From assembly GCA_950106755.1 (NCBI GenBank), contig OX467087.1:13644047-13708046 (forward strand): DNA of 64,000 bases, written 5' to 3'. Both the position numbers and the translations under genes were made by a program. Origin of the DNA: Climacium dendroides (Eukaryota; Streptophyta; Bryopsida; Hypnales; Climaciaceae). Below are positions 12,161 to 45,097 of this stretch, in pieces. The notes beneath the pieces were generated by a model. The model searched no databases and had not been told where the DNA came from. It worked only from the letters and a program-made list of their open reading frames with translations. Positions within the stretch are counted from its first letter, which is position 1. The number at the start of each line of letters is the position of its first letter.

Positions 12161-12193
12161 ATGGGCAATTTCGTTAAAATGGCGAAATTCCAT
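12161..12193 (+). repeat. Left terminal inverted repeat of the giant element
   Basis: The first 24 bases are the exact reverse complement of 36267-36290. Positions 12187-12193 (ATTCCAT) also match after two mismatches. It is preceded by AGAC. The adjoining 12194-12215 contains a degenerate second copy of the AAATGGCG motif. Confidence 0.7.
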
Positions 12194-13504
12194 TGAAATG
12201 GCGGTTTTCCGGTAGCCGAGAAGACTGGAAACTTGTTGAGATGCGGCTTGCAGGGTTCTTGAAGTGCATACTCTATTGTTTTTTTAGCGCTCATGGGATG
12301 GAATGGGGCCCCTCCTCGACTGGGAAGCTCAGATTGAGGTCATGATGGAGGATCATACAATAGAAGACTCAAGCATTTTCGACTATTGGAAAATAGGAAA
12401 GCCAAAGAGACAGTGCAATGCGGGATTTTTTTTGGGCAATTCATTAGTCTGAGGTCTTAACTAGACTCCAGTCACTCCACGGTCTTAGAGGAAGATGGCA
12501 TTGAGGGTCGGTTTAAGGTAGGGGGCTCATGAAGCGACCCTTTACGGGATGGTCGGCCTTTTTAATGGTCTTTAGATGCCTGAAATTAGTTTACTTTATT
12601 TTTCACTTGAAGCAAATCTGATTTGGAATTTAACCCAAGTGGTTTCATATTTTTCAGAGCATTTATGAATTACTTATGAATTTTCAAAGAATTCTGCCGT
12701 AGGTACCTATTTATGATCCCTAGGCCTTGCAAAACCTACACACGTGCGGTCTGAAAACAAGCACTGTAGCATGCAAAAATATAGTAGACAAGGTTCCTAA
12801 ATGTGATGTGTACTAAACCATACTCCTAAAGTGCCAAGGCGTATTTCTGGTCCAAAAACACTCAAAACTGCCATTTTTGCTCAATTCATCCAAGGCACCA
12901 GAAAAAAAAGTTTAAAGAAAATCGAGCCATAGGATCTTGTACTTTACTTATATGAGATCACGTGGTAACAATTTCATGAAGTTTGACCATATGGATTAAA
13001 AGATATTAACATTCAAAGTTTGAGTGCATTTTTTTTCGGAATGCACACACATGTTTTTAGAAATGGACCCACATTGGCTCTAATTATGTCCCCTATCAAA
13101 GTATGAACAAATAATTGATAAATGATAAACCTCTTTTTCATCATCAAAGGAACATTGATTACCTAGTTACCAACCTCTTAAGGTCCATTTTAAAGCCAGC
13201 TAGGGGACGGTCTGAAGAAGAGGGTTGGAATTCCATCCACCTACCTTAGTGGACATCATCGTTCACGGAACTTGCTGCAATTTCCTCCATCGCCACTAAG
13301 AAGTTTGCGTAGCCAAATGTACATGGGAGCAAAGTCCTTGGAAGAATTAGATTTTCGAAAAGATTGCAATAGACCACAGAATTTGATTGCCAGCTTGCTA
13401 CTTCCTTCACATAGAAACTAGCATGTACGCGGTCACTTGCCTATCACAATTTCCCCAATGGAGGGATCCCCTACAACTTGTCTAATCCTTTGTTTCAATT
13501 TCAT
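12185..13504. other. Left arm of giant element, no gene seen
   Basis: No coding frame or motif is convincing. About 12760-13060 is a relic of the dispersed AT-rich repeat also found in the sHSP spacers (shared landmark near ATAGGATCTTGTACTTTACT). The rest is unassigned. Confidence 0.4.
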
Positions 13505-13614
13505 CACTACAAGAGAAAGTATCCAAATTGACAGAAACTGGCCTGAATCAACTAGTCCTAATTGACAAAAAATTGACAAAAAATTGGACAATTCGGACAC
13601 TTTCTCCTGTAGTG
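13505..13614. mobile_element. Miniature CACTA-type element, 110 bp
   Basis: It starts CACTACAAGAGAAAG and ends CTCCTGTAGTG, with a CAT target duplication on both sides (13502-13504 and 13615-13617), the 3-bp size typical of CACTA elements. Internally it repeats AATTGACA and GGACA words. It is related in opposite orientation to the 140-bp element at 59857-59996. Confidence 0.85.
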
Positions 13615-14282
13615 CATCGAATACCACTCCAACGGATGGCCTTCTTGATTTGATATGCACTGAATAACGCGATATGTTTTATTCAATACTTGAACATTTG
13701 AGTCAGTCGTGGAGGTGCATTGTGGGAACAAACAATCAATGAATAAAACAGCAGGGAACAAAAAAGCTCATTAAAATCAACGTGCGTGCATGCCAACAAA
13801 AACACGGTTTTGGTTTGAAGAACAAATACTTTATTCAATTTGAATATGGATTTCTTGGAGGGATCCACCATTGTTTACATCATTCCTAGCTTCCCTCAAA
13901 ATACATGGTGCACCGACTTTCTTTCCCAGAAAGGAAAGAAGGGAGGGACGAGGAAGGAGAGGTGCCCTCCTGAAAAGGAGGTCTGACCATCCCTACCTTA
14001 TTTGGCCAAAGCTTGCACGGTGACCCATAGCTTTCCAATGCCCAGTAGCTTGCCATATGATAACCAACAGGGTCGACAAATTTGCACTCGGCATTTTTTC
14101 GATTGCGCCTCTTGAATCGATCGTATCATCGCATGTGTGGGGAGTCTTCCGCTTGATCAACACCAGCAAGTATCTATTTGCCAAGCATGTTGTTGAGAAG
14201 ACTCTATAGGGCACTGTGAAGTCCACGATCAAATGCTAGTCAACAGCAACGCGAACCAATGTTGGCATTGCCTTTGTGCCCA
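13615..14282. other. Unassigned sequence
   Basis: A minus-strand open frame of 79 codons (13993-14232) shows no recognisable domain and no splice context. The region may be remnant coding sequence of an older insertion, but nothing proves it. Confidence 0.3.
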
Positions 14283-14864
14283 ATGAATCATTGTTAAATT
14301 TGTGGCTTGTGTGGTGAAGAAGTGGAAACAATGACAGGCCATCCACATTCCTATCAGGAATATTCATAGGGGAAGTTTGCTTCATCTTTTAAGATTCCGT
14401 GGTCGCGCATAACTACGGGTCCTCTAGATACGGATGGGTGCCGCATTGACAGAGTGGATGCAGAGTTGACAGAGCTCCTTTGCATGACGGAGGGTAGTCA
14501 AGGGCACGCCCGAACCGTATATTATTCAAGATGGGATGGCAGGAGCGACCGTCATCCATTTTCTATGCCACATCCCTTTGCGTCCGTCAGCTCGATTGGA
14601 CCTGATGTACTATTGGCGGTAATGGTAGGAGGATCGATCTATCTCAAAACTTGCTCACTGTGCACAAACGAGCTCCGTGAACACTACATCCACTCTGTCA
14701 ATGCCGCACCCATCCATATGTAGAGGGCTTGTAGTTATGCACGACCACGGAATCTTGAAAGAGAAAGCTAACTACCCCTATGAATATTCCCGATAGGAAT
14801 GTGGATGGCTTGTCATTGTTCTCGCTTCTTCAACACACAAGCCACAAATTTAACAATGATTCAT
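14283..14864. mobile_element. 582-bp foldback element
   Basis: The arms, about 180 bp each (14283-14461 and 14692-14864), are inverted copies at roughly 90% by eye. Landmarks on the left arm are ATGAATCATTGTTAAATTTG, CCACATTCCTATC and AAGATTCCGTGGTCG; their reverse complements occur in mirrored order on the right. The loop is about 230 bp. No clear target duplication was found. A long-TIR (foldback or Mutator-like) element, or a palindromic rearrangement, would explain it. Confidence 0.75.
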
Positions 14865-15342
14865 CCCGCACATAGACAGCGTCAGAATTGGTCAGCACCG
14901 CAATTGACGAGCGTGTGTTCGAGGTTCTCATAGTGCCCTGCATGGATCTCGCAACGACATGATTGACAATAGATGCCTGCTGGCATTGGAGAAATTAATG
15001 GTGATCCGTAGATGCTTCTTGTTATTTGCAAGAGCCCCGATGATGCAATTTGAGAGGGGGCCGATTTGCTACAATGATACCAATGACACTATGCTTTGGG
15101 AAAGAGTGCTATGCTATGTAGTGATGGGGAAGCCAAACTATTCATAACAACGTGGATATTCTTATTTCTATATTCAATGTGGGGGGTGCACTAGAGTGTA
15201 TTGTAGAGAAGAATGATCAAATGAAAATGATTTTAGAATCCAATATTCATCTACAGTTCTATAGCTCAACTACATTCTATATCCAAAGCGGAAGCTCCGC
15301 GCAACCTTCCATCTTGACCTCTGCAAACGAGTCGAGGATGTC
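14865..15342. other. Unassigned sequence
   Basis: No gene, repeat or site is evident. Confidence 0.3.
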
Positions 15343-15383
15343 AGCCCCAGTTTAGAGCGGGCGGTCTGAACCGCTTGTAGTGG
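15343..15383 (-). other. Palindromic motif joined to a CACTA-like terminus
   Basis: A variant of the palindromic motif (TTTAGAGCGGGCGGTCTGAA, 15345-15364) runs directly into CTTGTAGTG (15375-15383). The latter is the sequence with which a CACTA element would end on the plus strand. No partner CACTACAAGCGG terminus was found to the left, so this may be an orphan end or chance. Confidence 0.35.
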
Positions 15384-15586
15384 TATTCGAACCTCCACAT
15401 CGACTTGCTCATTCGTTGTGTGGGCTGCTTTGGGAGGAGGTCGGCTCTGCAAATGTGAATGGTGCACCCAGGATCCTGCACAACAAGCCAACCGTGAGGG
15501 TCCGTCGGACAAGAGTGGCCGTTCAATGACGGCATAAATAAGCCCATGACATGTTCAGAGTGGAAATGGAGCGCAGCAGAGTGTTC

Positions 15587-15657
15587 GATGGAGAAATAAT
15601 TTCTCCCCATCCTAGACTACGTCATAGGGTAGGGTGGGAAAAAATTATTTCTCCATC
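15587..15657. repeat. 71-bp hairpin
   Basis: Imperfect inverted arms of about 22-25 bp start GATGGAGAAATAATTT and end AAATTATTTCTCCATC, with a loop of about 20 bp. No target duplication was seen. It could be a tiny inverted-repeat element. Confidence 0.6.
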
Positions 15658-15957
15658 AAAGTCACCCGTCGGCCCTTACGTACCTGAATTCAGCCATCCC
15701 CATTAGCTATTGATGAGCCCACCTTACAATATGTACAGCCCGTCGCATCTCCATGCGGCTGCCGACCGCGTCCTCCATTTAAATTCGAGCGGACGTGATG
15801 TCCTGGCCCGCCTCGTCGGGGGTCATGCAACCATCGGAGGAGCCCACCCCTTCCGTCATCTGCATCCGTCGCCGCTTGCCGCGTCCGGTGCCCATTCGGG
15901 AATCGGCGGCAGCATGCCCGCCTAGAGCGTGAACGCGTCGGCGCCCCTACACACGCA

Positions 15958-17522
15958 TCAAGTTTTTGTGTGGGCATCAGATTTTTTTTTGGGCTTCCTC
16001 TTCCCTCTTTGTCGGGTGAAATAATCGTCCCCTTCTCTAGTGTATTTGCCGACAAAGTCCGGATATTCCAGTACGAGGTGCTTGTCCTGCCACGGGGCTA
16101 ACACGCGAACGCGCAGTCCCAGATATGTCTGTCTCAAGGGTATCGTGAGGTGTCCGAAAAGTGCGTTCTGAGACACGTATTGCGACACGCTAAGACCGGA
16201 TGCGAGCAGGCCTTCGAGATACGGGCGCACAGTCCCCAAGAGAGTGGAATCGTGTTCACTGCCCACATACGACAAGGGAAACACGACGTTGTGCATGGGG
16301 TTCAGGATGCTGCTTTCTGGAGAGGAATCGATGAGGAGGGTATTGGACGAATTGGCCTGGAAGTTCTTGGTGACGAACGTCTCGGTGTCCCACACAACCT
16401 TGTGCAACACCTTCAGCCGCAGCTGCCCCTCCGGATGGTCGGGGAACTGCACGTAGGTGTTCACGTCGATAGTAGGATCACATGAGATATGGGCGGGGTG
16501 CCCCGGGCAGGGTGGGTCGGGAAGGGACGGCAAGGGTGGGCACCTGCACTCCCACCACGGCCGCCTCTCGATAATCGAGGTGCAGTTCTCTAGCACGAGG
16601 ACCCGCATGTAAGTGCAGTCGAAGTCGCGAAAGAGGAAATCGACCATGGGTTTGGCAACGACGACGGGCAGCCGAGTCCAGACGGAGACGTAAAATCGAT
16701 TCGTCAAGCCCGTGAGGAAGCGGTGCAAGTCGGGACGGCAATGCATCGTGTATTTGCCGAAGACGTGGCACCGTCGAGGGTGGTAATCCTCCTTCGAGGG
16801 CTTCGCCTTCGTGGTCGAGGGAGTTGGCTGGACGCGTCCAACATCCTCAATTTGGGCGAGGACCCCTTCCAACTCCAGAAGGACGAAATAGCTATACACA
16901 GGCAAAGCGACAGGGGGTGCCGTTGCAGACACCGGCAGTGGAGCCTGCGTATGCGAAATCCTGGGCTCAAAGTCCTCTTCTTTATGAAGAAATGAAGTCC
17001 ACAAAAATGAACATGTGACTCCTCAAGCTTTGCCTTGCTAAGAGAGAGACGACAACCCCCTCTCTATGAAGATCCTAGTTCTAACCTGAATGAGATGTGC
17101 ACTTCCTACAAACTATTTAGGCAAGTGCTGGACAAAGACAAGGAGCAGAGGGTTGCAAGGACATGGAGTCTCACCTTTCTTACATCCGTGGGAGTGGTGG
17201 CCACGAGAAGAGGTGGTGCCGGTGGCGCCAGGACAGCGAGAGTGTCGACATCTGCGAGGGAGGGAGGCACCATCTTCATAGGTACCGGAGTGGCGACCTC
17301 ATCGACAGCGGGAGCATGGACGTCTACGAGGGAAGGAGGCACTAAGTTTTGAGGCACCGGAGTGGCGACTTCCAAGTTGATGAGAGGGACGACCTCGACA
17401 ACAACAACAGCAGGAGAGCCGACTTCCATGGGGATGGCAGGTAGGACTTCATCATTCCTCGGGGCCAAAACGGGAAGTGGGGACAACGGAGACTCGTTGT
17501 CACGTGCGAGAGCATCGACAAC
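15958..17522 (-). CDS. FCP1/NIF-type phosphatase-like protein lacking the catalytic Asp
   Basis: Two exons are read on the minus strand, 17522-17175 and 16974-15958, joined in phase 0 by a GTGAGA...AG intron. No initiator is seen because the first exon opens at a splice acceptor. Exon 1 is Pro/Val/Ala-rich with a repeated VATPVP motif. Exon 2 resembles the FCP1 homology (HAD) domain: a hydrophobic strand LLELEGVLAQ where active enzymes have DxDxT, CRPDLHRFLTGLTNRFYVSV, a long insertion, then VVWDTETF and NTLLIDSSPESSILNP, followed by PYLEGLL. The first Asp is replaced by Glu, so phosphatase activity is doubtful. The tail is basic (GKRKPKKKSD), compatible with nuclear import. It lies downstream of the methyltransferase-like gene in the same orientation. 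A related degenerate gene lies in the CACTA element at 47361-49243. Confidence 0.6.
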
Positions 17523-17880
17523 CTGAACCGAAAATGCAAAGGGCGTAACTACAACGTCCAGAAGTAGTCGGAGACAAATCCCACAGAGCATCTCAACAAA
17601 ACAAGAGTCATGTATAAAGAAAAGCACCCAATATATTACAAGTAGAATACAAAGTTTGTACAAACTGAACGGTGAATGCAGAGGTTCAGTGGTCATGTCC
17701 AAGTCTAGTAGTCTACACCTAACAGGACCACTACAATCCTAACCAAGACGAGAGTCCCCAAACTCCCGGTCTCGCGGCTGAACAGATTCAAGACAGACTC
17801 GTCGAGATGATCTTCAATCGTCCTGACGTAACACCCTAACATAGCGTCCACACCACTACGACTAACTACAAAGATGGGAG
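17523..17880 (-). other. Intron or gap between two minus-strand genes
   Basis: It lies between the stop codon of the methyltransferase-like gene and the splice acceptor of the FCP1-like first exon. No further exon could be recognised, so it is unclear whether the two genes share a transcript. Confidence 0.3.
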
Positions 17881-20800
17881 CTATGTGTAGGGGTTACCCA
17901 CCGCGGGAGCCTCGTCGTCCTTGGCCGGTGAGTCCACCGGGGCTTGATCATCTCGCATCACCGAGGGCTGCGGTGGAGCAACTGCTGCCTGCAGAGGAGC
18001 ATACTGTTGAGTCAAGTTAGTGAACGAGGCTTCCATATCCCCCAATTGAACGTCCAGGTCATAAGGATCATCGTCGACCACGCTGGGACGATGTATGGGT
18101 TCAGGGACATGAATAAACGGAAACTGACTGAGGGCCAAGTCATCGTAGTCTGGGTCGCGAGTGACACTCACCGAAATAGTTGCAGGCTCCACGGTCCCCA
18201 GCAATTGCAGGCCCGACGCCGCTGTGGCCGTCGCGGAAGCCGAGTTGGTGGTGGACACTCCAGAGAGGTTCTGGATTTCGCTAGCAGGATGGGCCGTGGG
18301 AGTGACGGGTGTGGGAGGTGCCTTGGGCATCGCCGAGGTGAACATCTCGAAGCGGTCGTTCATAATCTTTAGCAACTCCCGATCGCGCCTCTTGTCCTCC
18401 TCGTACTGCCTATCCTTCTCTGCCTGTTGCCTCCTCTGCTCCTCCAACTACCTCTCCTTCTCGGCAAGCTCGCGGTCCCTCTCCGCTTTCTTGGTCTTGC
18501 GCTTGGCCTTCTTTTCCTGCTCCAGCCGCTCCTTCTCCTCTCTCTCCCTTTGGAGGGCCTCGATGGTCTCGGCACACTTGTCGACCACCACGGAATGCTT
18601 CCTCCTTAATCGCTCGGACATCATCTCCACAAACGAGAGGTTGAGGCCCGCCTTCGTGTCCATGGTGTCAGGCTTCGTCTCCTTCCTCCCCATGTCCAAG
18701 CTCCCCGACGCCTGAGGTGCGTCCGTTCCACCTCCAGATGCGGTCTCCGCGTCTGACGGAGTGCAATCCCCCCTTTGGGTGGCCGCCTTGACCATTTGGC
18801 TGTACTCTTCCCTGTTCTCCTTCGCCGTGGAGAGCCGCATATTCAGATCCTCCTCATCCACGTCGTCGAGGTCAATCGGGTTCTCCTTGGCATTCTGGAG
18901 AGCCAAATTGAGCTTCTGCTTCATGGCTCGCACATGAGCCAAGAGAACGAGTTCCTCGGGGCCGGCGGGAGGCAGTTGCGACCGCAAGGTATCAACAGTG
19001 ACATGCACCGTGATGAGCTTGCTCACTCCATCGGCATCCAGTGGGGGTCCGGCAGACTTCAACTCCCGAAGAACGCCCTTGACTTTGGTAATTTTTTCTT
19101 CTATCGATCCCCGCGCAGGTTCGGTGGAGTAGTCTCCGATGTTGGATCGGACATTCTCCAGCTCCACCCGTTGCTCTTCAGAGAGTCTCGCCTTGAGATC
19201 GTCCAACTCCATCTGGAGATCCTCGATCTGCATCCTAGGAAGGGCGGGAGGAGAGCCCTCACGAGAAGTGCCCGCATTGAAAGAAGGGCCTGTGGAGGTA
19301 CGCGGAGTGGGAGTTTTGAAGATGGGACCGCTCACTTCAGACCGCACGGTCTGAACCTCTTGGAGGCGAGGATGACTACGACTCGATAGGGGTGAGGCAG
19401 GATCGGGCTGGGCCCTCTGTAGCTCCAGAACTCTTGCTGGAGGAGAATCGAAACATAGAGTTTGAAGTTGCGGATGGGAGGATGGAGAAGTGGGAGACAA
19501 AGAAGGGGCTGAATTAGACCGCCCGCTTTGAACTACTGCAGTGGGAGACGCGTGATCAGACCGCACAGTCTAATCGTTACGAGGAGCACCCGCCGATCTG
19601 ATGGCAGCCTCCTCAGATTGTACCGTTGCCTCGCTCTCCATATGATTTTGTGACGATTCCCCTATGATTTCAGGGCCGCTATCTTCTTCGTCACGGTCGA
19701 GCGTTCGATCATCCAATACGTCTTCGTCTAGATCGTCTTCCTCATCCTCGTCCTCTTCTTCATTCTCGTAATCATCATCATCTTCGAGCCCCTCCACTTC
19801 CTCCAATATTGCCCCCCTTTGATGAAGATCCTCTCCCCTTCGTTCGAGTAGATCTTCTTTATCCTCCCCTTCCTCTTCTTCTTTGTCCTCTTCTCCCCCC
19901 TTGTCCGCTTCTTCATCCTCGACGGGGTGTTCCGCGTCCACATGCCCGGCATCGACGATGTCCAACGCCTCGTCCGACATGGCTTCCTCTTCGGTTGGTG
20001 CGGGCTCCTCCTCTATGGTCGGTCGACACCTCTGCGTCGGGGACTGCCCGTCGTAGTCGTACTTGAGGGTGTACCCCGGCAGGAAGACATGAGGCCACAT
20101 TTCCGCACCAATCCATTGATGCACGGAATGGAGGAGAAGGACTTTCTCGGTGGAGATCATGAAGGAGACGAAACTGCGACACAACATCTGTAGGACACAG
20201 TGTTAGTGAAGGGACAAAACGTGAACGTGGAATATCTATTCTTCTGGACCATATAGCCCCTGCAAAGAAAAAAAACACGAGTGGTGAAATCATTACCGTG
20301 CATGCCGAGACTGCTTTCACTCCAGCGAAGACGAGCATGACCATCCCTTGATCCCTGCAGAACTTGTCGATGAAGCGCAAGTACACGTCGTACCGTAGCT
20401 CGCGCTTGGACAGGATCCGAGGGAAATCGTGGCGGCAGACCTCCCGAGTCTTATACATGGGATCCGTAGCTATGAGGTCGTTGTCCTCGTCCTTGGACAA
20501 TTTGGGCACCTTGCCCTTAGCGTCCACCAACTTGGAGTTCATGAAGGTCTTGGCACTCCGCTGCAAGTACATGACCTTGTCCCTGTTCCTCTCCTTGAAG
20601 GTTGGCTCTCCCTTGCAGATCACGTAGTCACATTCCCGCCTAAGTGAATAGGACGGAAGAGCTCCGTCGCCAATCTGTCCACCGCAGCCGCCCGCTTCGA
20701 GTTGAAGATGAACATCCACGTGTGCACGGTCTTGGACATAGTGGAGTTGGAGACCTTCCTCACTTCCTCCATGATTTTTGCGTGCCCGGAAGTGACCTCC

Positions 20801-23073
20801 ATGCCATCAACCTTCGGAAATAGTCGGAAGTCAATAATGCCGACCTCGTAGTACTCCGTCTTCGCGGCTCCAGTTTCCGATCGATACGGTGACCACGCCC
20901 CATTCTTATGCACGTACAACTGTGGGTCGAAGTGCTTCTCGCTTCGTATCCATCGGCAGACGGTGGCTCAGGAGCACTTCCTGACCTTCTCGCATCGGTC
21001 GGCATTTTGCACGACTTGATCCAACGCTGCCAGGAATGGCTTCTTGGGCTTCTCCATTGTCCTCCCTGACTGGCACTGGGACTTCACCCAATCCAAACCG
21101 AGGCTTATGAGATGCCACATGTGGAAGCCACTGATGCACAACGCGGTCTTCAGATTCCGCCAAGCCTTGACATTCATGTCTCCCGGCTCGGGGAATACGC
21201 CCTTGGCCTCCTCGATGCCAAAGGTGTCGGCCTTGTCGACAATCTCCTTCGCCAGTTGCATCTTGTGCTTCTTGTTTGTGCACCACATGAGGAAATGAAT
21301 GGCCGACGTCCAGACCGTGGGTCTCTTGTTGAGGTACACCTTGGGCGGCACGTCTCCTTTGTCCGCCTGCCTCGTGTTCTTCCGGAATTGGGTTGGTCTC
21401 CGCGCGTTGTCCCACAGATATCAGCAATGGCGGATCGTGGCAGGGAGCGACGACAGGTACGAGCCGGTGACATTCCCGTCATTGCACTTGCAAAAGAGCG
21501 CGTGCAGGTGGTCCTTGTTTTTGGACCAGACGATCTCACAAGTCCACTTTTGCACCCGCTTCTTGACCGCCTCATCGTCGACGGATGTTGTCCCTGAAAT
21601 GATTTCGGTCGCAGCCTTCCACGTGTGCTGGCCGTTGATAATTTTCAGTGGGAAGGCCTTGATGCAATCCGCCCAGCAGGTAGGCCTCTCTGGCGTGTCC
21701 GGCATGACAGTCAGGATTTGCTTGGTGAAGTTGACCTTCACCATGCGGTCGAGGACGGCTAGGACACCCTTCTTCTCCAATGGCTTGAAGATCATGCCCG
21801 ACGTCTCGTCGGCACTTGTCATGTCCTCGAGGTCCAGCTCAAAGAAGTTGCCCCGTCCGAAAATGTACATGTAGGTGGACAACTCCTTGAACTTCTTGTT
21901 CACCACTGCCTCGACCTTGAGGCGTTTCCGGGCTTCCTCTTCTTCGCTGCGCTTGGGCTCCTTCTTGATCTCTAGATCCACAAACAGCTTATCCGGAACA
22001 GCTTTCTCATCGAACGGCAAGGTTACCGGGTTGTGAACCCAGTGGCCATTCACCTTCTTGAATGCCACCTTCTGTGCCTCCTCTTCGGATAAGTCGGTGG
22101 ACTCCGGGAAGGCGCTCTGCGTGGATGCGCTTGGGGCACCTTCACCCTCTTCCACATCGTGCAAAGTCCGTCGTGTCTTGTGAAAGCGGGACGCCCCTTC
22201 ATCTTGTGAGGCCAAGTCGTCACCGGTGGCGACAGGTGCGGACTTCCTCTTCTGCGCCTTTTGTTTGTCCCGTGTCGTGGGCCTAGGACGCTCTGCTACT
22301 CCCGTGCTAGGTGGATTGGGTCGGGACGGAGGGGATCGGGATGGAGTCGTCTGTGGCGCCACCGTTGCGGGAGCAGACCGTGCAGGTTCAGCCGGCGTAT
22401 GAGTTGTCATGCCTGCGAACCCTGGCAGCGCTGACGCTGTTGGCGGCCGGGAACGGTTGGCAGGCACCGAGGCGGACGCGACTGCTTTTTTCTTCTGGGT
22501 CCGCCCTTGCGCATCCATGTCAACGTTCCCTACTCCCTGTGATGCGTTACCACTAGTCAGCAACGACACGCATAAGGTGTTTGCATTAGTGAGGTACGCG
22601 CTCGCGACCCGTGCGGTCTTCACGAAGTCCCCAGCGTGCGCTTCGCACCTAGCTTGTATGTCCAACATGAGGATTTGGAACACATGCAAAACCCGGTCAT
22701 AATTTTTGATGAAGCGCTCATGGCAGAATATCATCTCGTCCTCTACGCGGATGATGACTACTCCCAGAGCATTGTTGCACGAATTCACTACGTCGACGAG
22801 AACGGCCTCTCGCATCACAATAATGTTAATGACTACCAAGTTCTTAAAGGATTTCCATCTAGGCCCTCCGAATTTTGTGAACCCCAATTCTAAATTAAAT
22901 ATCAGGGAGCCGTGAAGGTAACTCATTTCCACGGTTCACAATGCTTTGGTTGCAATGAAGGTCAGCAGAATTTTCCCTTCAACGTGCGCCTTCCACGACT
23001 CCATTAGCCGCTCAGGCGGTATTTGTGTAATGTAGCCCGTGAGAGGTGGCTTGCTCTTGAGGAAGGACTTCAT
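17881..23073 (-). pseudogene. Decayed gene resembling a ParB-like / DNA methyltransferase fusion
   Basis: One long frame can be followed from ATG at 23073. It is interrupted by TGA just upstream of 22932, TGA at 21423-21421 and 20970-20968, a frameshift near 20640, an intron at about 20300-20190, and TAG at 19572-19570 and 18450-18448, before TAG at 17883-17881. Order of parts: a helical N-terminus; a Pro/Ser-rich linker; a segment with FPLKIINGQHTWKAATEI near residue 476, resembling the G-H-R/W core of ParB-like domains; a W/K-rich middle; TVHTWMFIFNSKRAAAVDRL and CDYVICKGEP, resembling the body of N4/N6 methyltransferases; LVFAGVKAVSAC, resembling motif I (FxGxG) near the end of that core; a long Asp/Glu tract; a Ser/Pro linker; and a coiled coil rich in Glu/Arg/Lys. 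No clear (D/N)PPY motif is seen. The fusion order resembles bacterial and phage ParB-methylase fusions. The assignment is by eye. Confidence 0.45.
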
Positions 23074-23089
23074 GTCATTGTCCACATGA

Positions 23090-24570
23090 ATCAAATCAGA
23101 CCGGCCGCTCAGAATCAGATAGGCCGCTTAAAATTGCAATCTTCTCAGCGGCCCTGTATTACTAGGGTTCTAGCCCTTCGATTAGTTCAGAGCGACCGCT
23201 CTGAACTAATCTGGATCCACGACCTATTCAGTGTAGATGTTCACAGTAGTCTGCTTATAGACAATTCTGTACTATTGACCGTGCGTGATATCTAGTGTTC
23301 GGGCTTGGGTTCCTGCTATTTAATTGGGTTTCAATTAAATTTCACAGCGGTTTCACTATACTAATCGATCGGATTCTCTGGATCCTATGGTACAACGTGA
23401 AATGATCATAACCTAGGATCTATGCTCCTCTATCCTCTATAGTCTTCCCAGATGAATCATTCAATTCATCAGTTAGAGATACTGGTCTCACCGTACCCGA
23501 TCTACGCGAAGATGTTATTTCATCAGATGCTCACTTTAGTGAGCCATCCGAATGAGTTTGGAGCGACTGCTCTAAACCTCCCTAATGTTGAAAGAGACGT
23601 TACAGGATCAGAGCTGCCGCTCTTCACTATAGGGAGCACATACATCTAGTAAGCTTCAGTCATGTCGATAAAGGTTTAGAGTGACCGCTCTGAACCTGCA
23701 GCTCTAATTCCAACCCTAAGGATGTTGTGAACGGTCTGACAGCGCTCATTGCCATCGTTGAGAATTAGAGCGACCGATGAGAACCTTGACCCTAACTACC
23801 AATTGGAAACTTCAGTGCGTTCCCTCTGGACCGCTTCCACTCTCATTGTGGAAGTGCCAGTTTGGAGTGACCACTATGAATCTGCTGCACTGGTTTTGGC
23901 GAGTGCTTCATTTCAGAGCGGTCGCTCTAAACCGTGATCACGCTCCATACGAACAGCTGCGCTCAATTCTACCATTCCCAGTACCGATATCTGCAGGTTT
24001 AGAGCAGCCTCTCTGAACCTCTGCTTCGTGATGAGCATGGTCACGGTTTAGAGCGACCGCTCTGAACCACCTTGTACACGATTTCAATGTTGCAGGTTTA
24101 GAGCGGTCGCTCTGAACCATGAGCGAGTTCATATTGGAGCAGGAGGTTCAGAGCGACTACTCTAAACCTCTCTCTGAACGAAATCACAACTCTGTCATTT
24201 CATTCACAGGGAGGTTTAGAGCGGTCACTCTGAACCTTCTACTCCAATATGAACTCGCTCATGGTTCAGAGCGACCGCTCTGAACCTCCTTGTGCTCAAT
24301 TCCAATGCTGTAGGTTCATAATGGAGTAGGAGGTTCAGAGCGACCGCTCTAAACCTCCCTGTGAACGAAATGACAGAGTTGTGATTTTGTTCAGAGAGAG
24401 GTTTAGAGCGGTCGCTCTGAACCTCCTGCTCCATTATGAACTCCCGCACGGTTCAAAGCGACCGCTCTAAACCAGTCTGGCCGACTTCACAAGTGCAAGT
24501 TCAGAGCGGTTGCTCTGAACCTCAACATCGCTCATTACGGAGCTGGAGGTTTAGAGCGACCGCTCTGAAC
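23090..24570. repeat. Array of about 16 palindromic 24-bp motifs
   Basis: The consensus is GGTTYAGAGCG-RY-CGCTCTRAACC: 11-bp arms with a two-base centre, spaced mostly 45-70 bp. Good copies lie near 23187, 24044, 24093, 24262, 24330, 24400 and 24548. The Y/R variation in the arms is C/T and G/A, as expected from cytosine deamination. The array starts within 20 bp of the methyltransferase-like start codon, on its upstream side. Larger inverted repeats are nested in it (24116-24260 and 24308-24440). Candidate roles are transposase binding sites, operators, or a substrate for small RNAs. Confidence 0.9.
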
Positions 24571-25567
24571 CCTACCAATAGCGTAATCATGTGCGCGGTT
24601 ATAGGGGGTCCTTGTTCTAACTAATTCTTCTGTGTTTGTATGGTTTCAAATTGTTCAGGAATGGTTGGCATTGCAATCAATTGGGATGTAGTGATTACCT
24701 GGGCTAGGAACTGGTTCAATACTCTGTTTCTTCAGCCTATAATAACAAGATTGCTTCATTTGTTAAGACTCCAGGAACTCGGAATCCTTCGCGGCTGCAG
24801 ATGAAGTGAACACAAACCGCTCCTCAATCCCGAATACTGAACACAAAAGTTCAAGTGACATAGAACTCAATGTAATCACAGTCACAGTGCTCTTATGATC
24901 TAAATCTATTTTCAAACAAACGTAGCAGAATGGATTGAACAGCAGTTGAAAATGAGAGACTTCAAGATTGAACCCCATCAACAAAGCGACAACAAATACT
25001 GCAAACACGGAAACCAATGAAACGAAATACTGACACTACATAGACAAATGCTTTCAGATAAACACAAAATCACAACAAACAGACATCAGCGTAGATAAAA
25101 GCAACCAAACTAAACTAAAGTGCAAGATGTGCATGGTCTTCGTGCAATTCTGGAAAACAACCGACTCGCAGAAGGATTCAAAACGCAGAGAAATGAAGAA
25201 CCTCGCAATGGGGACCTAAACCCTAAGTCCGCGGAGAACATACCTCCAAAATCTGCTCAAGGTTGTCCACCGCGCCGGGATTGAAGAAGAAAGTCCAAAT
25301 TTGAGCACCGGAAATGAAGAAGGTTGTCCAGACTCTGCTCCCACTGCTCCGCACAATGAGGGAAAACAATACTATTGACGAAAGTGCTAACTACAGAACT
25401 GCGCGGGGGAAAATCACAGTGACGAAATACCTACGCGGGGAGAGGCGCGATAGCGAGGACTAACGTGAGAAAACCCTGGGAACAGTGAAGAAGACCTACC
25501 GAACCTAAACCGAACCTAGATCCATCGAACCCAAGCCGAACCTAAGCCGAGTCTAAAGGAAGCATCA
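24571..25567 (-). other. Putative upstream region of the methyltransferase-like gene
   Basis: Moderately GC-rich, with no coding frame longer than 84 codons. The segment 25180-25500 has the look of a plant 5' leader or promoter read on the minus strand. CCGAACCTAA-type words repeat at 25498-25556. No TATA box could be assigned. Confidence 0.3.
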
Positions 25568-26414
25568 TCAAACTACTAAAATCATAAGTTCCTCTCTAAT
25601 GTCACAAATGCTATCATTAATAGTAGAGGCTTGTGCTTATTATGTTACGCATTCATTGTACCACATATTAGTGAAATTTTGATATATTTGAATAGAATGC
25701 ATGATAATGATTTCAATAAGTCTTCAATATAATTATTTTAAATATTTTGTGAAAATATTTTCAATCATGCATATATAGAAATCGTATTTTCACACAATGT
25801 GATATTACAAAAATAGTAGTTTGCAATCACTTATACAAAGGGTGATATTGTAGAAATAATTGAGTTGCTGCAATTAAGGTGATATTAAAGAGGATCCAGA
25901 GGATGATATTATAGAGGTACTAAATCCATTGCTTCTCTTGGCTTTACACTTCTTTGCACTTCTATAATTCTGTGCTTTCGTGAGCTTTGAGCTTTCATGA
26001 TTTCAATTTTCTATTGCTACTACCAAATGATTTTGAGAAATTCATTCAATTGAAGCAATTTGGGATTCCACAAAAATTAAGTTGCTCACAAAGGTTTTGA
26101 GATTTATAAGGGTTTTTTTTCAATTCTTCAATTTGGGTTGCCATTTTTTGTAACTATGGAATCAAATTTCTAATGCATTCTAATGTATGTGTATCTTTTT
26201 TAGTATTCATCATTGCATGTATTTCATTCAGCATTCATTAAATTTTCATTGTTTATTTCAGTATATGCTTTTTTATTAAAAAAATTATATGAAGATTTTA
26301 CTGATTTTTATCTGAAGATTTATTGAAATTCTTGCTTTGCATTCTATCTAATACATTAAAATTCTTATGAATTTCTAATGGTGAATGCATAGCATAGCAA
26401 GCGCCAACTGCTAG
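25568..26414 (+). mobile_element. Helitron-like non-autonomous element, copy A
   Basis: It begins TCAAACTACTAAAATC after A, and ends GCGCCAACTGCTAG before T. That fits the Helitron rule of 5' TC, 3' CTRR and insertion between A and T. It is AT-rich and non-coding. Inverted partners lie just inside the ends (GCTTGTGCTTATTATG near the left, AGCATAGCAAGCGC near the right), unlike canonical Helitrons and reminiscent of Helitron2/Helentron termini. Its 3' CTAG is joined directly to the 5' TCATACTA of copy B. Confidence 0.65.
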
Positions 26415-27270
26415 TCATACTATTAAAATTAGAACTCCCTCTGTAATAGCACAAATGCTACCATTCATACTTAGGGGTTCGTGCTTGCTATGCTACGCAT
26501 TCATTGTACCACATATTAGTAAATGTTTGATATATTTCAATAGAATGCATGATAATGATTTTGATAAGTCTTTAAATTAATTATTTTAAATAGTTTATAA
26601 AAATATTTTCAATCAGGCATACATAGAAATCATATTTTCACACAATGTCATATTACTGAAATTGAATAGCACTTCACAACCACCTCTAGTATCCCTTTTT
26701 ACCAAGGGTGATATTATAGAAATTATATAGTCGTTGCATTTGAGGGGATATTAAAGAGGATCCAGAGGATGATATTATAGAGGTAGCAAATGCGTTGCTT
26801 CACTTGGCTTGAAACTTCTTTGCACTTCTATGATTTTGGGCTTTCGTGAGCTTTGAGCTTTCATGATTTCAATTTTCTATCACGACTACCAAATGATTTT
26901 GAAAAATTGATTCAATTGAAGAAATTTGGGATTCAACAAAAATTTAATTGTTCACAAAGGTTTTGAGATTTATTAGTTTTTCTTTTCAATTCTTCAATTT
27001 GAATTGCAATTTTCTGTAACAATGGAGTCAAATTCCTAATCTATGTGTATCTTTTATAGTATTTACCATTGCATATGCTTCATTCCTCATTCAATAAATT
27101 TCTATGCTACTTTTCTATATATGCTTACTTAGAACAAAAATTATACAAAGATTTTAGGCATTTTTATTTGAAGATTTATTGAAATATTTGGTCTACATTC
27201 TATCTAATACATAAAAATTCTTATGAAATTTTTATGGTGAATGCATAGCATAGCAAGCGCCAACCGCTAG
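26415..27270 (+). mobile_element. Helitron-like non-autonomous element, copy B, head-to-tail with A
   Basis: It begins TCATACTATTAAAATT and ends GCGCCAACCGCTAG, followed by T. At 856 bp it is collinear with copy A along its length at roughly 85-90% by eye. No base separates the two copies. Confidence 0.65.
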
Positions 27271-28213
27271 TCCAGTACTGCAACGATTCTTTTCCAAGTT
27301 TGCATTTCTTATACATGTAATCATATTAGCAATAGTATCGTTACTCATGAAAACTCCTTTTTACTATTAATATAAATAAGATTTTTAATAAGTTAAAAGC
27401 TTCTAAGACATAAAAATAATTTTAATTTAAAAAAAAAAGAATTTGCTAATTTGCTAATCTGCGAACTTAATGTTTTTGCATAGTTCATTGCAACAATATA
27501 AATTTGTTGGGTCAACACTACAATAAAGCATCTAACGACCAAAAAGAACTATGGAGGACTTTGGAGATTTAGGGTTACCTCATGTGATTTGAATTTCGAA
27601 CATGATTTTATGAAATAGTTTGGAGATACTTCAACAAATGAGCTATCAAAGAATGTAATATTCATTTTAATAATTGTCCTAAAATATAAGTTATGCCACT
27701 ACAAGTCCCCCCAAAATGCAAGAAGTGATAGAAGAAGGTATTTTGAAGACAATGTAAGCATCTCTTGCACAAAAGTACATACTTGAACATCTCCTACAAT
27801 GTAAAACACAAGAGCATTAGAAAGATTCTGAATGCTTGGAAGAAGTTCCACATACCATACTAATCTCATCAACTGTTCACTTTTAATGAGCAACACACAG
27901 ATAATGTTGTACTTTAAATGTTTGATAAAAATTAGTTCTGCATGTAAAGTCTTTGGGGGGATCTACTAATGATTCAATTGAACATGTTGAATAGAAATGT
28001 CATGTTCTCCTGATGTGGCCTACAAAAAGATAAATCCCAAGGTAACAAAGTGACTCCAGTTTATCCAAAAAGTAAGAAAGCTACTTGTTAGAAAAACTTG
28101 TACAAAATAAAGAAACAAAACATAACGTCTTTTTCTAATGAAACTACTCCCGGTACTATGGTACTTAGCAAAAATTCATTATGTACATACAACAAGTAAG
28201 TAGAAGTCTTCCT
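27271..28213. other. AT-rich downstream flank of the small spliced gene
   Basis: No gene or repeat was recognised apart from short AT-rich runs. It includes the presumed 3' untranslated region of the gene ending at 28214. Confidence 0.3.
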
Positions 28214-29455
28214 TCAACGATAGTGGCGACGGGACGCTCGACGCTCAGGTGTGAAGTTATCCAAATTTGCTTGTGCTTGATTGAGCCGGGCACGAAATTC
28301 ATCAAAAATATCCGTTCTAAAGTGAATTGTTTGAGACTCCCTATGCAAATGTTCAGTCCCGTACTTGTCATCCTAAACAATGAAGTACCAATAAGACATA
28401 TTTCAATGAGAAATCTTTTATAAATCCTTCAAAATTCAAAAAATCACAACATTACCCAAGAAATTGACATCATCAAAAATTCAATATCATGAAAAAAAAA
28501 TCAAAGAATGAAGAGATATCGAAGGGCATCATTTTTTCCTTTGCTATTGGAAGGTCAAAAGCAATCTATATTACAAACCTCAATGAGTTGTAGAAGCAAG
28601 GAACCATTCTTGGATGCGGCGAGCTCATCCTCATCATCGAATTCCTCCATGAGAGCCCTACATGCCATGTGAATCAAGACATATTATCATATAAAAAATT
28701 AACATGTCCAAGTACGTACATACTGAAATCTCAAAAACCAAGCAAAACCTTTGCAAACCTAAACAATTATCAACAAATGAACTAAAACAGAAACAATGCT
28801 AACAAGAATTGAGCATCAAAATCAATCAAGAAATGTTAATATATAGTATAGCATGTTGTACTTGACAACCAAAAAAACTCACCGAAGGTTTGTGCAATCC
28901 TTGTTGTGACGCACATGGACATACTCCTCCATCATGGCCCACACATCTCGAATTGCAGCATCAAATTGTGCTCCCCAAGGAACTTCAAGTGTGCCCTGCA
29001 ATGCACACATAACATGACCTGCAACAAGAAACCAACAAAGATTGCACTAAGGAACAACCATGCATGTGATACCTACATATTATCCAAAACTTAGAGTTTT
29101 GCATATGCTTTTGAAGTACACAATTCTACAAATGGAAGAAGGAAAACATAACCCATGTAGTATTTACCCATCTCGGTGTCTTGGAACATCTCCTTAGACG
29201 TCTCGCAGTGAGAATAATGGGCAAAGCAATATAGCTTGTAGCCTTGCCAAAAATCGCAAGCCCTATTTCAAGCAATTTTGAATCAATTTCAATGAAGCAA
29301 TCATAAGTATGGTAGAAAATCATGCAACAGCTGCAAACGCAGAAAGCCCAAAAAACATGTGTAGAAAAAGAAGGAGTCACTTATCCAAAGTCCTCATTGT
29401 CCAAAAGAACTCTAAGCTGCTCGGAGCACTTACTGAAGTTTGCAGCGCCAGCCAT
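28214..29455 (-). CDS. Unrecognised five-exon gene, about 179 aa
   Basis: Exons on the minus strand are 29455-29385, 29262-29168, 29018-28883, 28657-28579 and 28372-28214 (stop TGA). Phases match at every junction. Introns 2 to 4 have GT-AG borders; intron 1 would need an AT donor (ATAAGT) with an AG acceptor. The ATG lies in a good context (TCAATGGC). The product starts MAGAANFSKCSEQL, includes ACDFWQGYKLYCFAHYSHC and HVMCALQGTLEVPWGAQFD, then an acidic stretch EEFDDEDELAA, and ends basic (TPERRASRRHYR). I do not recognise the family. It sits between the Helitron-like pair and the DUF7869-like gene, so it may be captured host sequence. Frame-consistent exons argue that it is a genuine gene. 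Confidence 0.65.
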
Positions 29456-31200: not shown

Positions 31201-31475
31201 GTTCAGGGCGGTCTCTCTGAACTGAACGTGGGGTGACGATTGGGAAGCAATATGACACTCCGTTCAGTTCAGAGCGGTCGCTCTAAACTGAACGTGAGGT
31301 GACGGAGACGAAAGCTATCCTCCGTTCGGTTCAGAGCGACCGCTCTGAACTGAACGTGAGGTGATGGAGACGAAAGCTATCCTCCGTTCAGTTTAGAGAG
31401 GTCGCTCTGAACTGCACGTCAAGTGACCGAGGCGAAGGCTATCCTCCGTTCAGTTCAGAGCGGCCGCTCTGAACT
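31201..31475 (+). repeat. 62-bp tandem array built on the palindromic motif
   Basis: Five units begin at 31201, 31267, 31329, 31391 and 31453. Each opens with a variant of GTTCAGAGCGGTCGCTCTGA, followed by ACTGAACGTGAGGTGACGGA and a spacer ending CCTCCGTT. The motif is the same as in the array at 23090-24570, which ties the two gene sets together. More single copies follow at about 31749 and 31936. Confidence 0.9.
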
Positions 31476-31652
31476 GAACAGAGGGTGACAAATCATGAGC
31501 GCTAGGAACGGAGGGTGACGGAGCTCTGTGATCCTCCCTACAGTTCAGAGAGGCCTCTTTGAGCTTCAGGGAGGATCACAAAGCTCCGTCACCCTCCGTT
31601 CCTAGCGCTCATGATTTGTCACCCTCTGTTCAGTTCAGAGTGGCCGTTCTGA
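31454..31652. repeat. Near-perfect 199-bp palindrome
   Basis: The two halves are inverted copies with only a handful of mismatches, centred on AGGCCT near 31551-31556. The arms include AGGGTGACAAATCATGAGCG and its mirror. Each outer end and the centre coincide with a copy of the 24-bp motif. Such a sequence can extrude as a cruciform or give a long hairpin RNA. Confidence 0.9.
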
Positions 31653-32415
31653 TCTATGTTTTGCATGCGCATTATTTAGATCCTAGTCCTCCGTTTTCCC
31701 AATTAGGCGCGATCACGTGGATAAATTACGCATGCATCCTGTTCCTCGCAGTTCAGAGCGGCTGTTCTAAACTGTTATTCAGTGGAGCTCTTTCTTGGAG
31801 ACTCTGGACTGATCAGCATTCATTGTAGGAACAAGTTCTTCTTTGTAATTCTTTACATTGTGTTGTCTATCCTTTGGCGCGCTTCCTCTATACTGGGTGT
31901 GGAACAATATCTGTGAGAAGTGTAACTCTTCCACGCAGTTCAGAGTGGCTCAGTGAACAGTCCTTGGGGGAATTTGTGCGTAGACTTCCAGTCTCCTCAG
32001 ACTTAGACTGTTCGGTCCATACTCATGTGCGGTTGATTGTCTTTCTTAGACATAGTGGCATTGCACTGCTGAATGGGGTCCACGGTAGTTGACGTTCTAT
32101 GGGAACTATTAGTTTCAGACTTCACTGCATTCTATACCAAACCTCACAGCAAGTGGGCGGGTTCGAGACAAATGCTACACTATTTCATACTGTATTTGAT
32201 TATGTAATGATGTCCTCATATTCCCCACTTTCGCCACTCGCCTAGTTGTCATTGCTTCTAATACTTTTTATTTTACTGCTGTCAGGCGTGTTAGCCCTTG
32301 TGGGCTGAACGAAGAGGATGTATATGCTACCAATTCTTTCAAGTGTCACTCTCATGCTTCCTACGAGGCCGCTATTTTCTATCATTAGAAAACACTTACG
32401 ATTTTAACGTCTCCT

Positions 32416-35400
32416 ATGTTTTCTTCGGACGACTCTGATGGTGATGAGGTATTGTATATAACTTTCTATTCTCGTCAGTTTTCACGTTTCTTATTGTACA
32501 TTGCGTTCCTTTGTCGTTGATGTCGTGTCAATTCTTCATCGTTCGGTGTGCAGGGGTTTGCAGAATGTCAGGAAGAGGACGTGGACTTGGAAGCATATGC
32601 CGAGGCAAACGTAGACAATAGTCCCATCCCAGATTGCGAGGGCATTGATCGAGACGGATGGTTTGGGAAGGCATTGCTCGCAAAACATGCGGACGGCTCC
32701 GACTTTGCGGAAGTCATCATCATCAATGCCAATCCCAACGCTTGCATTGATGGACAAAGCAGGCTGGGGATGGATGACGTTGGCATTGTTGTCTTGGACG
32801 TGTACAACAGGGACCCCAACGTCAGAGACATGTGCTTGCGCTGGCCTATGCGGCAGGTGTTTCACCACGGCGAAAATGGGTACGTCAGTGTTTACGATCA
32901 CGCTCGCAAGCGAGAAGCTCTGGATAAAGAAATGGAAGGGAGTAGAAAACATGGGGGCGTGCGACGGTATCGTTATGATAGGAGAGCTCGAGCTGTCGCT
33001 TTACTAGATAAGAAGACGAAGATGGTATCACATGAATCCATTGCAGAGGTCTTCACACAAATCTGCTGCGATAATGAATGCACTCGTAAGTTCCGTCCTT
33101 CCACCATCCGTGTGCTTCGCACGGAAATGCACCTACAGACATTTCAAGTGAAATCTAGCAAAAATTTGGATGTTCATAGGACAATGCACAAAGCGGTTCC
33201 GAGGGGGAGGCAAGTTGTCACCTTAGAAGGCATAGACGTCTATCCACGTGCTTGGAAGATTCTTCACAACATCCCCCTCCGCACATTCGAAAGATACAGG
33301 GCCAAGGCCAAGGCTGGCGTCAAAGGCGCTCCACACGGGAACTCCAATCGAAAAAAGACAAGGACTGCCACTGTTCAAGGCATCGAGACTTTGCGCTCAT
33401 TATTGGAGGCAATGGCCGACCACATGCCCCATTTGTCTCGCACCTTGCCCACTAGTGAAAAGGTTTGCCTCAAAGTTCTTCCGACCGGTACCGAATGGAG
33501 GCAATTACTAGCCACCGTGAACAAGGTACAGCTCGCAATGTCACCTATGGCATTCATATGAAAAGGACATGGTCGAATTGTCACATCGACCACAATAGCT
33601 CATAGAGTCCTCCAACATCCAATGAAGTGCTTGTTGAATACGCAGACTGAGTGCGCGTGTTTCTATTGTTTGTAGGCCAATGAAGAACTCGGGCTATCGA
33701 CACTCTCGCAATCATGTTTTAGTAAAATTCGAACAAAATATTTTGCTGAGTACGTCGTGAAGGGAAGGGGAGATTCCTTCGCAAGATGTAGCATTTGTGA
33801 CAATCTAAAGCAACTACGAGCTTCTTTTGCTCCTGGATCGGAGGACTATCAACGAATCCAAAGGCGCTTCGAGAAGCACTTGTTTCTACAAGAAACTTGT
33901 CGACATGCCTACTACCATAGTAGATGGTTATCCAAATTACGGCCTATGCAACTTTTATCTATCATGCACGACAAAATGGATCATTCAAAAACAGCATGTC
34001 CTGCATTGGCAAGGAAAACAAAAGCCCTAGATGGGTTCATGAAGTTGCCCGTGAAGGTATTAGGGATTTTTGCACATGGACACGGGAATGGCAAATATGC
34101 ACATTACAATTTGGACGTGTTTCCCAGCGACAGCAACTTTACAGTGGGATCCATCGCCAAATTGTTACGAGATTTAAAAGGGCCCCCCGCAATGTCTTCA
34201 TGGACGTTGTTCGAAGGAGCCGGAAGCACGGAACTATATCGAGCGTTGCTGCAAGGTAGCGAGATCTATGTTGATTCTTTGGGAGCTGTTCTTCCTCAAC
34301 CTATTGAGGTTCAACCATTGCCACCGGTGCTACACGTTCAGATGGACAACTCTTGGAGGGAAAACAAAAACAGGTATGTCTTCTGTTTTTGGTCCTTGTT
34401 GGTGGCAAGACGCATTGTGAAAGAAGTGGTGGTATCCTTCATGATAGTGGGTCACACCCATGATGACATGGATGCATCATTTGGGCGATGGAGCATGCAA
34501 CTCCGCAAGAAAGACCATCCCACCCTACCATCATTGATGCAATCCTACATGGAAATGGAACAAGGTCCGTTCATTCCACATCTAATTGAAGAAGTGCCCG
34601 ACTTCAAGGCCTATGTCAAACCTTATATTGGGATGCACAATAAACAATTGGTGGGCCACTCTCATGGGAGACAGTACAAATTCTTCATGGATGACAACGG
34701 ATGGCCTATCATGCAATACAAATTGGCGTGTACAGACATTCCATGGTTGCCTGAAGGGGGATTGAAGCTATGGAAGGAAGATATCGACCATAGACCTATA
34801 CTTCCTCAAGGTGATCCACCGCGCGTGACCCCCAAGAAGATGACAAACGAAGCTGAGATTTTGCGTGGACTTGATGGATACATCCAACATTGGAAAGACA
34901 TATCCGAAGAAGATGGGACGGTGGAGTACAAAACCCACATGTCAAATTTGGTCACGTATTGGACCCGCGTGAGAAATGCCATGCTGGATGGAGGCGAAGA
35001 AGACTCCCCCCAATCTAATGAATTGCAGCAAGGATTTTGGCCTCAGACTCGACAACCCGAAGATCTTATGACAGATTTCATGCAAGATGGAAGGACACGT
35101 CAAGAGTTGGAGGCCGAAGATCCTTACATTGGTACTCTAGAGGGAAGGCCCCCACCAGCATACAATGTAGTCACTGATGTTCGTGAGGGATTCTACCTCT
35201 TTGTGAGGCCAGGATTGGATTGTCTTGAGCCCGTATGGCTCGGAAGGGCAGTAGAAAATCCACAATTTGATCCCACGGCCATTCACTTTCGCGAAGTCTT
35301 AGTGCAATGGTACACCCCATGTGGAACATCCAAAGATGTGCAACGGTTGTATGCGGGGTGGGACACAAAGCCTAATTTTAGATGGAAGATTGACCGAACG

Positions 35401-35448
35401 GCCGACAAAGTTGACTATGTTTCCACAGATAGTATCATGGCATCATAG
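32416..35448 (+). CDS. DUF7869-like protein, candidate transposase (about 925 aa), three exons
   Basis: Exons are 32416-32448 (MFSSDDSDGDE), 32554-33525 and 33676-35448. Both introns are GT-AG in phase 0, and no stop or frameshift interrupts the joined frame. The N-terminal half has an acidic start and a Cys-containing segment, then PRAWKILHNIP and a basic HGNSNRKKTRTATVQ. The C-terminal half begins ANEELGLSTLSQSCFSKIRT, followed by ARCSICDNL (a CxxC pair), LSIMHDKMDHSKTA, AHGHGNGKYAHYN, HVQMDNSWRENKNRYVF and FMIVGHTHDDMDASFG. These Asp/His blocks resemble the conserved core of DUF7869-type proteins and could form an RNase H-like active site. The family name is from recall and the nuclease role is inference. 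Upstream lies the palindromic array. The gene is intact while its minus-strand neighbour is decayed. Confidence 0.8.
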
Positions 35449-36182
35449 AAACCAAAGAAGAACGATGGAAATAGTTTCATTGCTCTTCGTCAACAAGTGC
35501 AGTTTGCAGTGGATCATTTACGTCAAATTGTTGAAGAAGAACAAGGTTGGTGAATATGAAGTCCTGGGAGACGACTATTCCAACAGTCATATTTCATGCT
35601 TGCGATGCCCCTTTGTATTGTAGAAGGTGGACCTTCACATATTATGCAACAGGTAGTGATAGTTTTTCTCATCCGATGACATTGCAACGGATTGTACAAT
35701 TTTGAATAGACTGTAGGCATCATAGGTTGTCTGGTCCTCGATCTTTGTATGCAATCTCCATTTTGTTCAATCTGAAATACAAGTTTTTGCCCTTCTGTTT
35801 TGCATCCATTCCAACAAGACGTATTTTAGATACCAACTTCACTGACCACGCACTCATGAACGATGCAAACCTAAACAAGTACCCAAACTTGTGCCCATCA
35901 TGATGATGAACACAAATATCCCCCCCCCTTCAATGGGCAATGACCCCCATGTTAAGCACTAACAACTCCATGACAAGATTTCCACGTTCTACCTATTAGT
36001 CTACCAAGACTTTCACTAACAACATCTATAGTCATTGTCTTTCGCACAAGTCCTGTATAGAAATCCTAAGGATTTGCACTCGTATGCAAGGGGCCCATTT
36101 GCCACTCACTAGCGCTACGCCCAACGACTAGTACATAGCACAATACAAAGGCAACTTAATGGTCGCTCATGTCAACATGGGA
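35449..36182 (+). other. 3' flank of the DUF7869-like gene
   Basis: No further coding frame was seen. Short low-complexity C runs occur near 35921. It leads into the duplicated right terminus. Confidence 0.4.
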
Positions 36183-36290
36183 CATGGAATACCGCCATTT
36201 TAACGAAATTGCCGACAAAGCAAAATCACCTCAACGCTTCTCATGTCAAAATGGCACATGGAATACCGCCATTTTAACGAAATTGCCCAT
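36167..36290 (-). repeat. Right terminus of giant element with tandem duplication
   Basis: The terminal word CGCCATTTTAACGAAATTGC occurs twice in the same orientation, at 36193 and 36267, 74 bp apart. Each is preceded by CATGGAATAC. The outer copy reads on to GCCCAT and is followed by AGAC. The inner copy is a subterminal repeat or an older end. Confidence 0.75.
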
Positions 36291-45061: not shown

Positions 45062-45097
45062 ATTTCAATTTAATATTTTTAAAATCTTAAATGTCAA

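Follow-up and report, generated by a model that had tools for sequence, protein, structure and literature searches.

The element described here is much larger than most cut-and-paste transposons of plants, which carry one or two genes. Among the DNA transposons with which it was compared, piggyBac elements have the target duplication TTAA, Sola elements encode DDE transposases with 4-bp duplications in Sola1 and Sola2, VANDALs are Mutator-like, and Polinton/Maverick elements combine a 6-bp target duplication with a protein-primed polymerase B and a retroviral-type integrase. The Sola superfamily is named in Repbase (in an excerpt of PMC4455052). Ginger1 and Ginger2 are described as DDE DNA transposons with mostly 4-bp duplications and ends of the form TGTNR, Ginger1 being 2.6–7 kb long and the Ginger enzymes being similar to Gypsy integrases (excerpts of PMC2836005). 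The giant eukaryotic transposons include Polinton/Maverick, Teratorn and large Helitrons, of which those of maize reach up to 39 kb through captured gene fragments (passages in PMC6431247). In Arabidopsis, the VANC proteins of VANDAL elements target a short motif that occurs in changing tandem arrays in non-coding regions (PMC5735166 and PMC10398659). Here we analyzed a stretch of 64,000 nucleotides from the moss Climacium dendroides (assembly GCA_950106755.1, contig OX467087.1; hereafter the window), in which positions 12161–36290 very probably represent a giant DNA transposon with terminal inverted repeats, of a family about 25 kb in size and in a damaged copy, with a DUF7869 protein as its putative DDE transposase, accessory genes and possibly regulatory arrays.

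The element shares with class II terminal-inverted-repeat transposons inverted ends that are constant at many sites, flanks that change, and a fixed 4-bp duplication (9/9 copies). It appears to operate by the cut-and-paste route of DDE transposons, and DUF7869 may define a new superfamily. For a DNA transposon of a plant, its size and complexity are unusual. A putative DDE enzyme and 4-bp duplications link it to Ginger; unlike Ginger, the present element starts with ATGGGC, is 25 kb long and gave no match to an integrase family. Assignment to Ginger was rejected on the termini (ATGGGC in place of TGTNR), and assignment to piggyBac on the absence of TTAA from the nine duplications read; the length of the duplication (4 bp in 9/9 copies) speaks against Polinton/Maverick. 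A likeness to Sola may exist at the level of the general description of that superfamily (DDE, 4 bp in Sola1 and Sola2). Giant eukaryotic transposons, including the fungal Starships, are similar in exceeding 20 kb and in carrying genes in addition to the one for transposition, but the enzymes of Polintons, Teratorn and Starships are different ones. Whereas maize Helitrons contain captured fragments, the present element has gene blocks that appear to be under selection. The closest parallel for the layout of its arrays is VANDAL21/VANC of Arabidopsis, likewise from multi-gene plant DNA transposons with short motifs in changing tandem arrays near genes, although VANC21 binds the 9-base sequence YAGTATTAY, compared to a palindrome of 20 bp in the present element; the likeness is one of layout. 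Among the titles listed from the open-licence literature searched, none describes the element itself, and no paper names DUF7869.

The sequence ATGGGCAATTTCGTTAAAATGGCG begins at position 12161 of the window, and its exact reverse complement forms the other end, up to position 36290. The terminal inverted repeat is exact over 24 bp (12161–12184 on the plus strand and 36267–36290 on the minus strand) and 33 bp long when two mismatches are included. The tetranucleotide AGAC is found directly outside both ends (12157–12160 and 36291–36294) as the target-site duplication. These matched ends and their AGAC flanks had been named in an original prediction made from the letters of the window, which was correct to the base. 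An additional, subterminal copy of the terminal repeat with two mismatches in 24 is located at 36193–36216 (minus strand) and is also present in the genomic copies B and C, D–H, and at loci L034–L045. When up to three mismatches were allowed, the 24-mer was found three times in the window, i.e., at the two exact ends and at the subterminal copy, compared to 0.00 expected from 100 shuffles.

The genome assembly (412.6 Mb) was searched separately for the left end (query of 86 bp, with matches mostly covering its last 80 bp) and for the right end, and the best 40 of 300 and the best 40 of 642 candidates, respectively, were scored and retained, which favors ends that are similar to those of the window copy. 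The retained left ends had 98–100% identity. The two independent end lists were then paired by position and orientation within 60 kb. A partner was found for 28 of the 40 left ends, at a distance of 24.1–25.3 kb in 24 cases and of 28.3, 28.8, 36.9, and 40.8 kb in the other four, which perhaps contain nested insertions. Two of the 12 unpaired left ends (copies A and B) were read through, and both do have a right end.

Nine further copies were retrieved by their left end. Three of them were read through to the right end (25,066, 27,133, and 25,037 bp), five were read over 20 kb and over another 2 kb from the right end (25,032–25,212 bp), and the ninth was read for 10 kb only, its right end being known by position. 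All nine copies read at both ends, including the window copy, share one 24-bp terminus, and each is flanked by a perfect 4-bp duplication. The nine duplicated words are all different (AGAC, ACAC, TAGA, ACTT, ATAT, ATAG, AGTA, CTAG, and ACAG). The claim of one large mobile element with 4-bp duplications has thereby held, with full-size copies, constant ends and changing flanks in 9/9 cases. These copies are distributed over six contigs and have their ends and, as far as retrieved, their interior in common. Twelve copies retrieved by the DUF7869 exon, three of which overlap with the other nine, end at the same terminal base next to twelve different flanks.

Identity among copies C, D, E, and F is 99.5–99.6% over the first 9.4 kb, and the family has therefore moved recently. 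Over the same stretch the window copy is 95.3–96.1% identical to the other copies except copy B. The latter has an identity of 88% over the first 9.4 kb with long local matches of 94–97%, which we ascribe to the way in which approximately 2.75 kb of additional sequence in this copy affects the alignment. In a limited local test, the joined flanks of nine copies were compared to the sequence retrieved in this analysis, and no empty site was spanned. About 0.5 kb beyond copy D lies an element of 279 bp (L029/L041, element position ~25534–25812), both ends of which are similar to the right end of the giant element and whose flanks agree at three of four bases (GTAC/ATAC); it looks like a short non-autonomous derivative. 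Within the window, positions 1964–1989 contain a degenerate match to the element end (four mismatches in 26) that is possibly from a related, older element.

The gene nearest to the right end of the element encodes the DUF7869 protein. In the window copy it consists of a first long exon frame of 346 amino acids (32521–33561, plus strand) and a second exon (33676–35448, plus strand; Pfam E-value 5.8e-46), the latter having a stop at codon 591 and probably encoding a DDE transposase. In one other copy the frame spans about 960 codons over the two long exons, and the first exon frame of another copy has 31% identity to the N-terminal part of a Physcomitrium protein of 939 amino acids; 28 of 48 full copies of exon 2 are without a stop. 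The modeled core of the protein appears RNase-H-like, with DDE enzymes (transposases and integrases) as its leading structural neighbors. Three aspartates that are invariant in the alignment (D102, D224, D266) follow the order expected for a DDE triad and may represent it, and the candidate acidic residues of exon 2 are at codons 99/102, 224, and 264/266. A copy of a family that is 75% identical in the DUF7869 gene has almost the same right terminus beside this gene. Because the modeled core resembles DDE transposases and integrases and because this related family has a nearly identical right terminus, the DUF7869 protein is likely the transposase of the element. When compared to Pfam, 42/42 members matched DUF7869, and the ten other weakly matching families at an E-value of 0.5 included no transposase (DDE_Tnp-type, rve).

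Relatives of the DUF7869 protein amount to 219 proteins, of which 120 were listed. Seven named proteins among these 120, from Physcomitrium patens and Ceratodon purpureus, have 42–46% identity over 67–100% of exon 2 and are annotated only as DUF7869, predicted or hypothetical protein. At two places in the genome (G000:C34:31568819-31580459 and G000:C35:23860399-23869688), pairs of DUF7869 genes are found in opposite orientation 5–8 kb apart, which suggests inverted or nested copies.

The remaining coding blocks are on the minus strand. The block interpreted as a long gene comprises a first long exon (21424–22935; 611 amino acids open in some other copies), with two stop codons in its aligned part in the window copy, and the 3′ part of a second exon (20248–21354, its start estimated from the alignment). 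A deletion of approximately 640 bp at 21351–21355 has removed the 5′ part of this second exon from the window copy, a segment that is kept in all eight other copies reaching this place. The second exon is followed by an acidic exon block (17884–20202; 771 amino acids open in another copy, stops and indels in the window copy), which looks coiled-coil-like when the sequence is read by eye, and by an FCP1/NIF-like gene of the HAD phosphatase fold (15961–17022; Pfam PF03031, E-value 1.8e-10). Many single copies, including the window copy, carry stops or deletions, and the window copy is thus damaged.

The ratio of non-synonymous to synonymous substitution rates (dN/dS) was pooled over five copies (W, A, B, G, and H), each compared to copy C in all frames. 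In frame it was 0.30 for the first long exon, 0.20 for the second exon, 0.40 for the acidic block (0.84 and 1.04 in its other frames) and 0.27 for the FCP1-like gene, compared to a range of 0.83–1.62 over the other frames of the four blocks. Because of these low values in frame relative to the other frames, the four minus-strand exon blocks are probably working parts of the element family. An additional frame of 210 amino acids at 17109–17738 was not counted as coding (0.72 in frame and 0.44 in another).

The original prediction had regarded the element as a transposon with a cargo of unusual genes, among them a DUF7869-like, an FCP1-like, a methyltransferase-like and a small spliced gene. Both the DUF7869 gene and the FCP1-like gene are present, the latter confirmed by its Pfam match; the idea of a captured cargo does not agree with gene blocks that appear to be under purifying selection, nor does a cargo role suit the DUF7869 gene, which probably encodes the transposase instead. 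A methyltransferase reading of the long minus-strand gene found no support: at an E-value threshold of 5, six members gave no methyltransferase match in Pfam and no match of any kind among PDB sequences. The small spliced gene was not identified, and the DUF7869 gene itself appears to be spliced. The long minus-strand protein has five relatives with 45–57% identity and no recognizable family in Pfam or among PDB sequences. Its fold model is poor (predicted local distance difference test, pLDDT, of 45), too poor for a structure search, and the sequence RDQGTVMLVFAGAKAxSAC, mostly invariant in the six aligned rows, proves nothing alone. The FCP1-like protein has ten relatives with 39–60% identity, all with a NIF domain (12/12 aligned rows match NIF). 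The catalytic motif I of FCP1/NIF proteins is DxDx(T/V). Of the 12 rows, seven extend this far, and all seven have ELEG, EVEG or ELDG in place of the motif; the nucleophilic aspartate is replaced by glutamate in the window copy and in all five of the ten relatives that reach it. With the usual first aspartate gone, the function of the FCP1-like protein may be one of binding and not of cutting.

Two arrays of a 20-bp palindrome, TTYAGAGCGRYCGCTCTRAA, are located upstream of the two diverging gene blocks, array 1 (23095–24569) upstream of the minus-strand genes and array 2 (31202–31771) upstream of the DUF7869 gene. With up to two mismatches, 22 palindromes were counted in the window element and none in the other 39.9 kb of the window (shuffles 0.00), an enrichment that is itself expected as the motif was found by k-mer count in the same data, so that it is the arrangement that is informative. 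One of the 22 is at 15351 and 21 are in the two arrays (23186–24569 and 31202–31771). The spacing is 48–50 or 68–69 bp in array 1 from position 23998 on, and 62–66 bp in four of the five intervals of array 2 (first five copies). At up to three mismatches, copies A, B, and C and the window copy have 34, 26, 25, and 24 palindromes, respectively, and the number in array 2 differs between element copies. In one copy of the 75%-identical family no palindrome was found in 901 bp at the roughly matching place.

Placed one upstream of each gene block, the palindrome arrays suggest self-regulation of the element. Non-regulatory origins are a real possibility, namely passively expanded hairpin-forming tandem repeats or sites for an ordinary host factor; palindrome number and spacing vary between copies as they do in passive tandem repeats, and the related family is without the palindrome in the 901 bp examined. 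Against this, the 20-bp palindrome recurs with alternative bases in both arrays although these are separate and differ in their spacers, and it therefore seems to be the palindrome as such that is maintained.

With respect to the element as a whole, a chance or assembly-made repeat pair around unrelated host DNA is refuted by the ends and interior common to 9/9 copies on six contigs, and its probability is negligible. Large size, two diverging gene blocks and several genes would also fit an endogenous virus or a Polinton/Maverick-like element. We consider this very improbable, because polymerase, capsid, packaging ATPase, protease, and retroviral-type integrase had no Pfam match in the 19 frames scanned (a subset of the frames of the element, in which some represent one gene in two copies and the 9.6-kb center is covered incompletely), because the duplications are 4 bp in 9/9 copies rather than the 6 bp of Polintons, and because alignments of the DUF7869 and long minus-strand proteins gave 99 and 44 pattern matches in IMG/VR, respectively, with no confirmed relatives among them. 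Several observations weigh against the interpretation as a giant transposon with its own DUF7869 transposase and working gene blocks: the window copy is itself damaged, DUF7869 has no sequence similarity to the Pfam transposase families, the dN/dS of the DUF7869 exons (three copies) shows no clear contrast between frames, and two stretches taken as non-coding have dN/dS values of 0.42–0.97 over frames, so that one value of about 0.4 carries little weight by itself and it is the contrast between frames that counts. The first two of these, together with the 279-bp element, the termini of which imply that the ends are movable in trans, would fit a non-autonomous giant whose transposase is encoded elsewhere and in which DUF7869 is just another carried gene. 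This appears improbable given the position of DUF7869 nearest to the right end, its apparently RNase-H-like modeled core with DDE enzymes as leading neighbors, the almost identical terminus adjoining the DUF7869 gene of the 75%-identical family, and the 28 of 48 full exon-2 copies without a stop.

The giant transposon interpretation instead accounts for what was observed directly: many copies that spread recently, with constant ends, duplications of 4 bp and conserved internal genes. In the mechanism that we propose, the DDE-type DUF7869 protein would bind the ATGGGCAATTTCG... ends, excise the element by cut-and-paste, and join it to a target cut in a 4-bp stagger. Accessory functions selected for the spread of the element itself would come from the acidic block, the long minus-strand gene and the FCP1-like protein, the active site of which is altered, and the products of these genes would help this spread, perhaps against silencing. 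The palindrome arrays would most likely serve as binding sites for a protein of the element or of the host, by which the expression of both gene blocks is controlled or protected. A more far-reaching version, which we regard as rather doubtful, is that DUF7869 represents an undescribed DDE superfamily and the element a giant self-regulating form of it, in which the altered FCP1-like, acidic and unknown-fold proteins act via the two promoter-side arrays against host silencing.

Because the element has 25 kb, conserved accessory blocks and copies that are 99.5% identical, it suggests that DNA transposons of plants are able to maintain what amounts to a miniature genome without losing the ability to spread. 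In addition, a function is proposed for DUF7869, a domain found in 219 related proteins, and the palindrome arrays offer concrete grounds for proposing a further system by which plant transposons regulate themselves in a sequence-specific manner.

Between the two arrays the element contains two tandem units of approximately 850 bp each (25564–27271). A relative of these units outside the element (45097–45944) is about 81% identical to each of them, and the units are possibly another repeat that was captured and then doubled inside the element. The insertion is surrounded by repeated DNA units on both sides (7478–9946 and ~38000–62000), the former of which contains a class I small heat-shock protein frame (8816–9322; PDB Hsp16.9B, E-value 1.7e-40, with plant class I proteins as best matches). 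Positions 39239–39975 and 54611–55333 contain four arms of about 240 bp that are 90–92% complementary in the pairs listed and form two fold-back structures approximately 15 kb apart.
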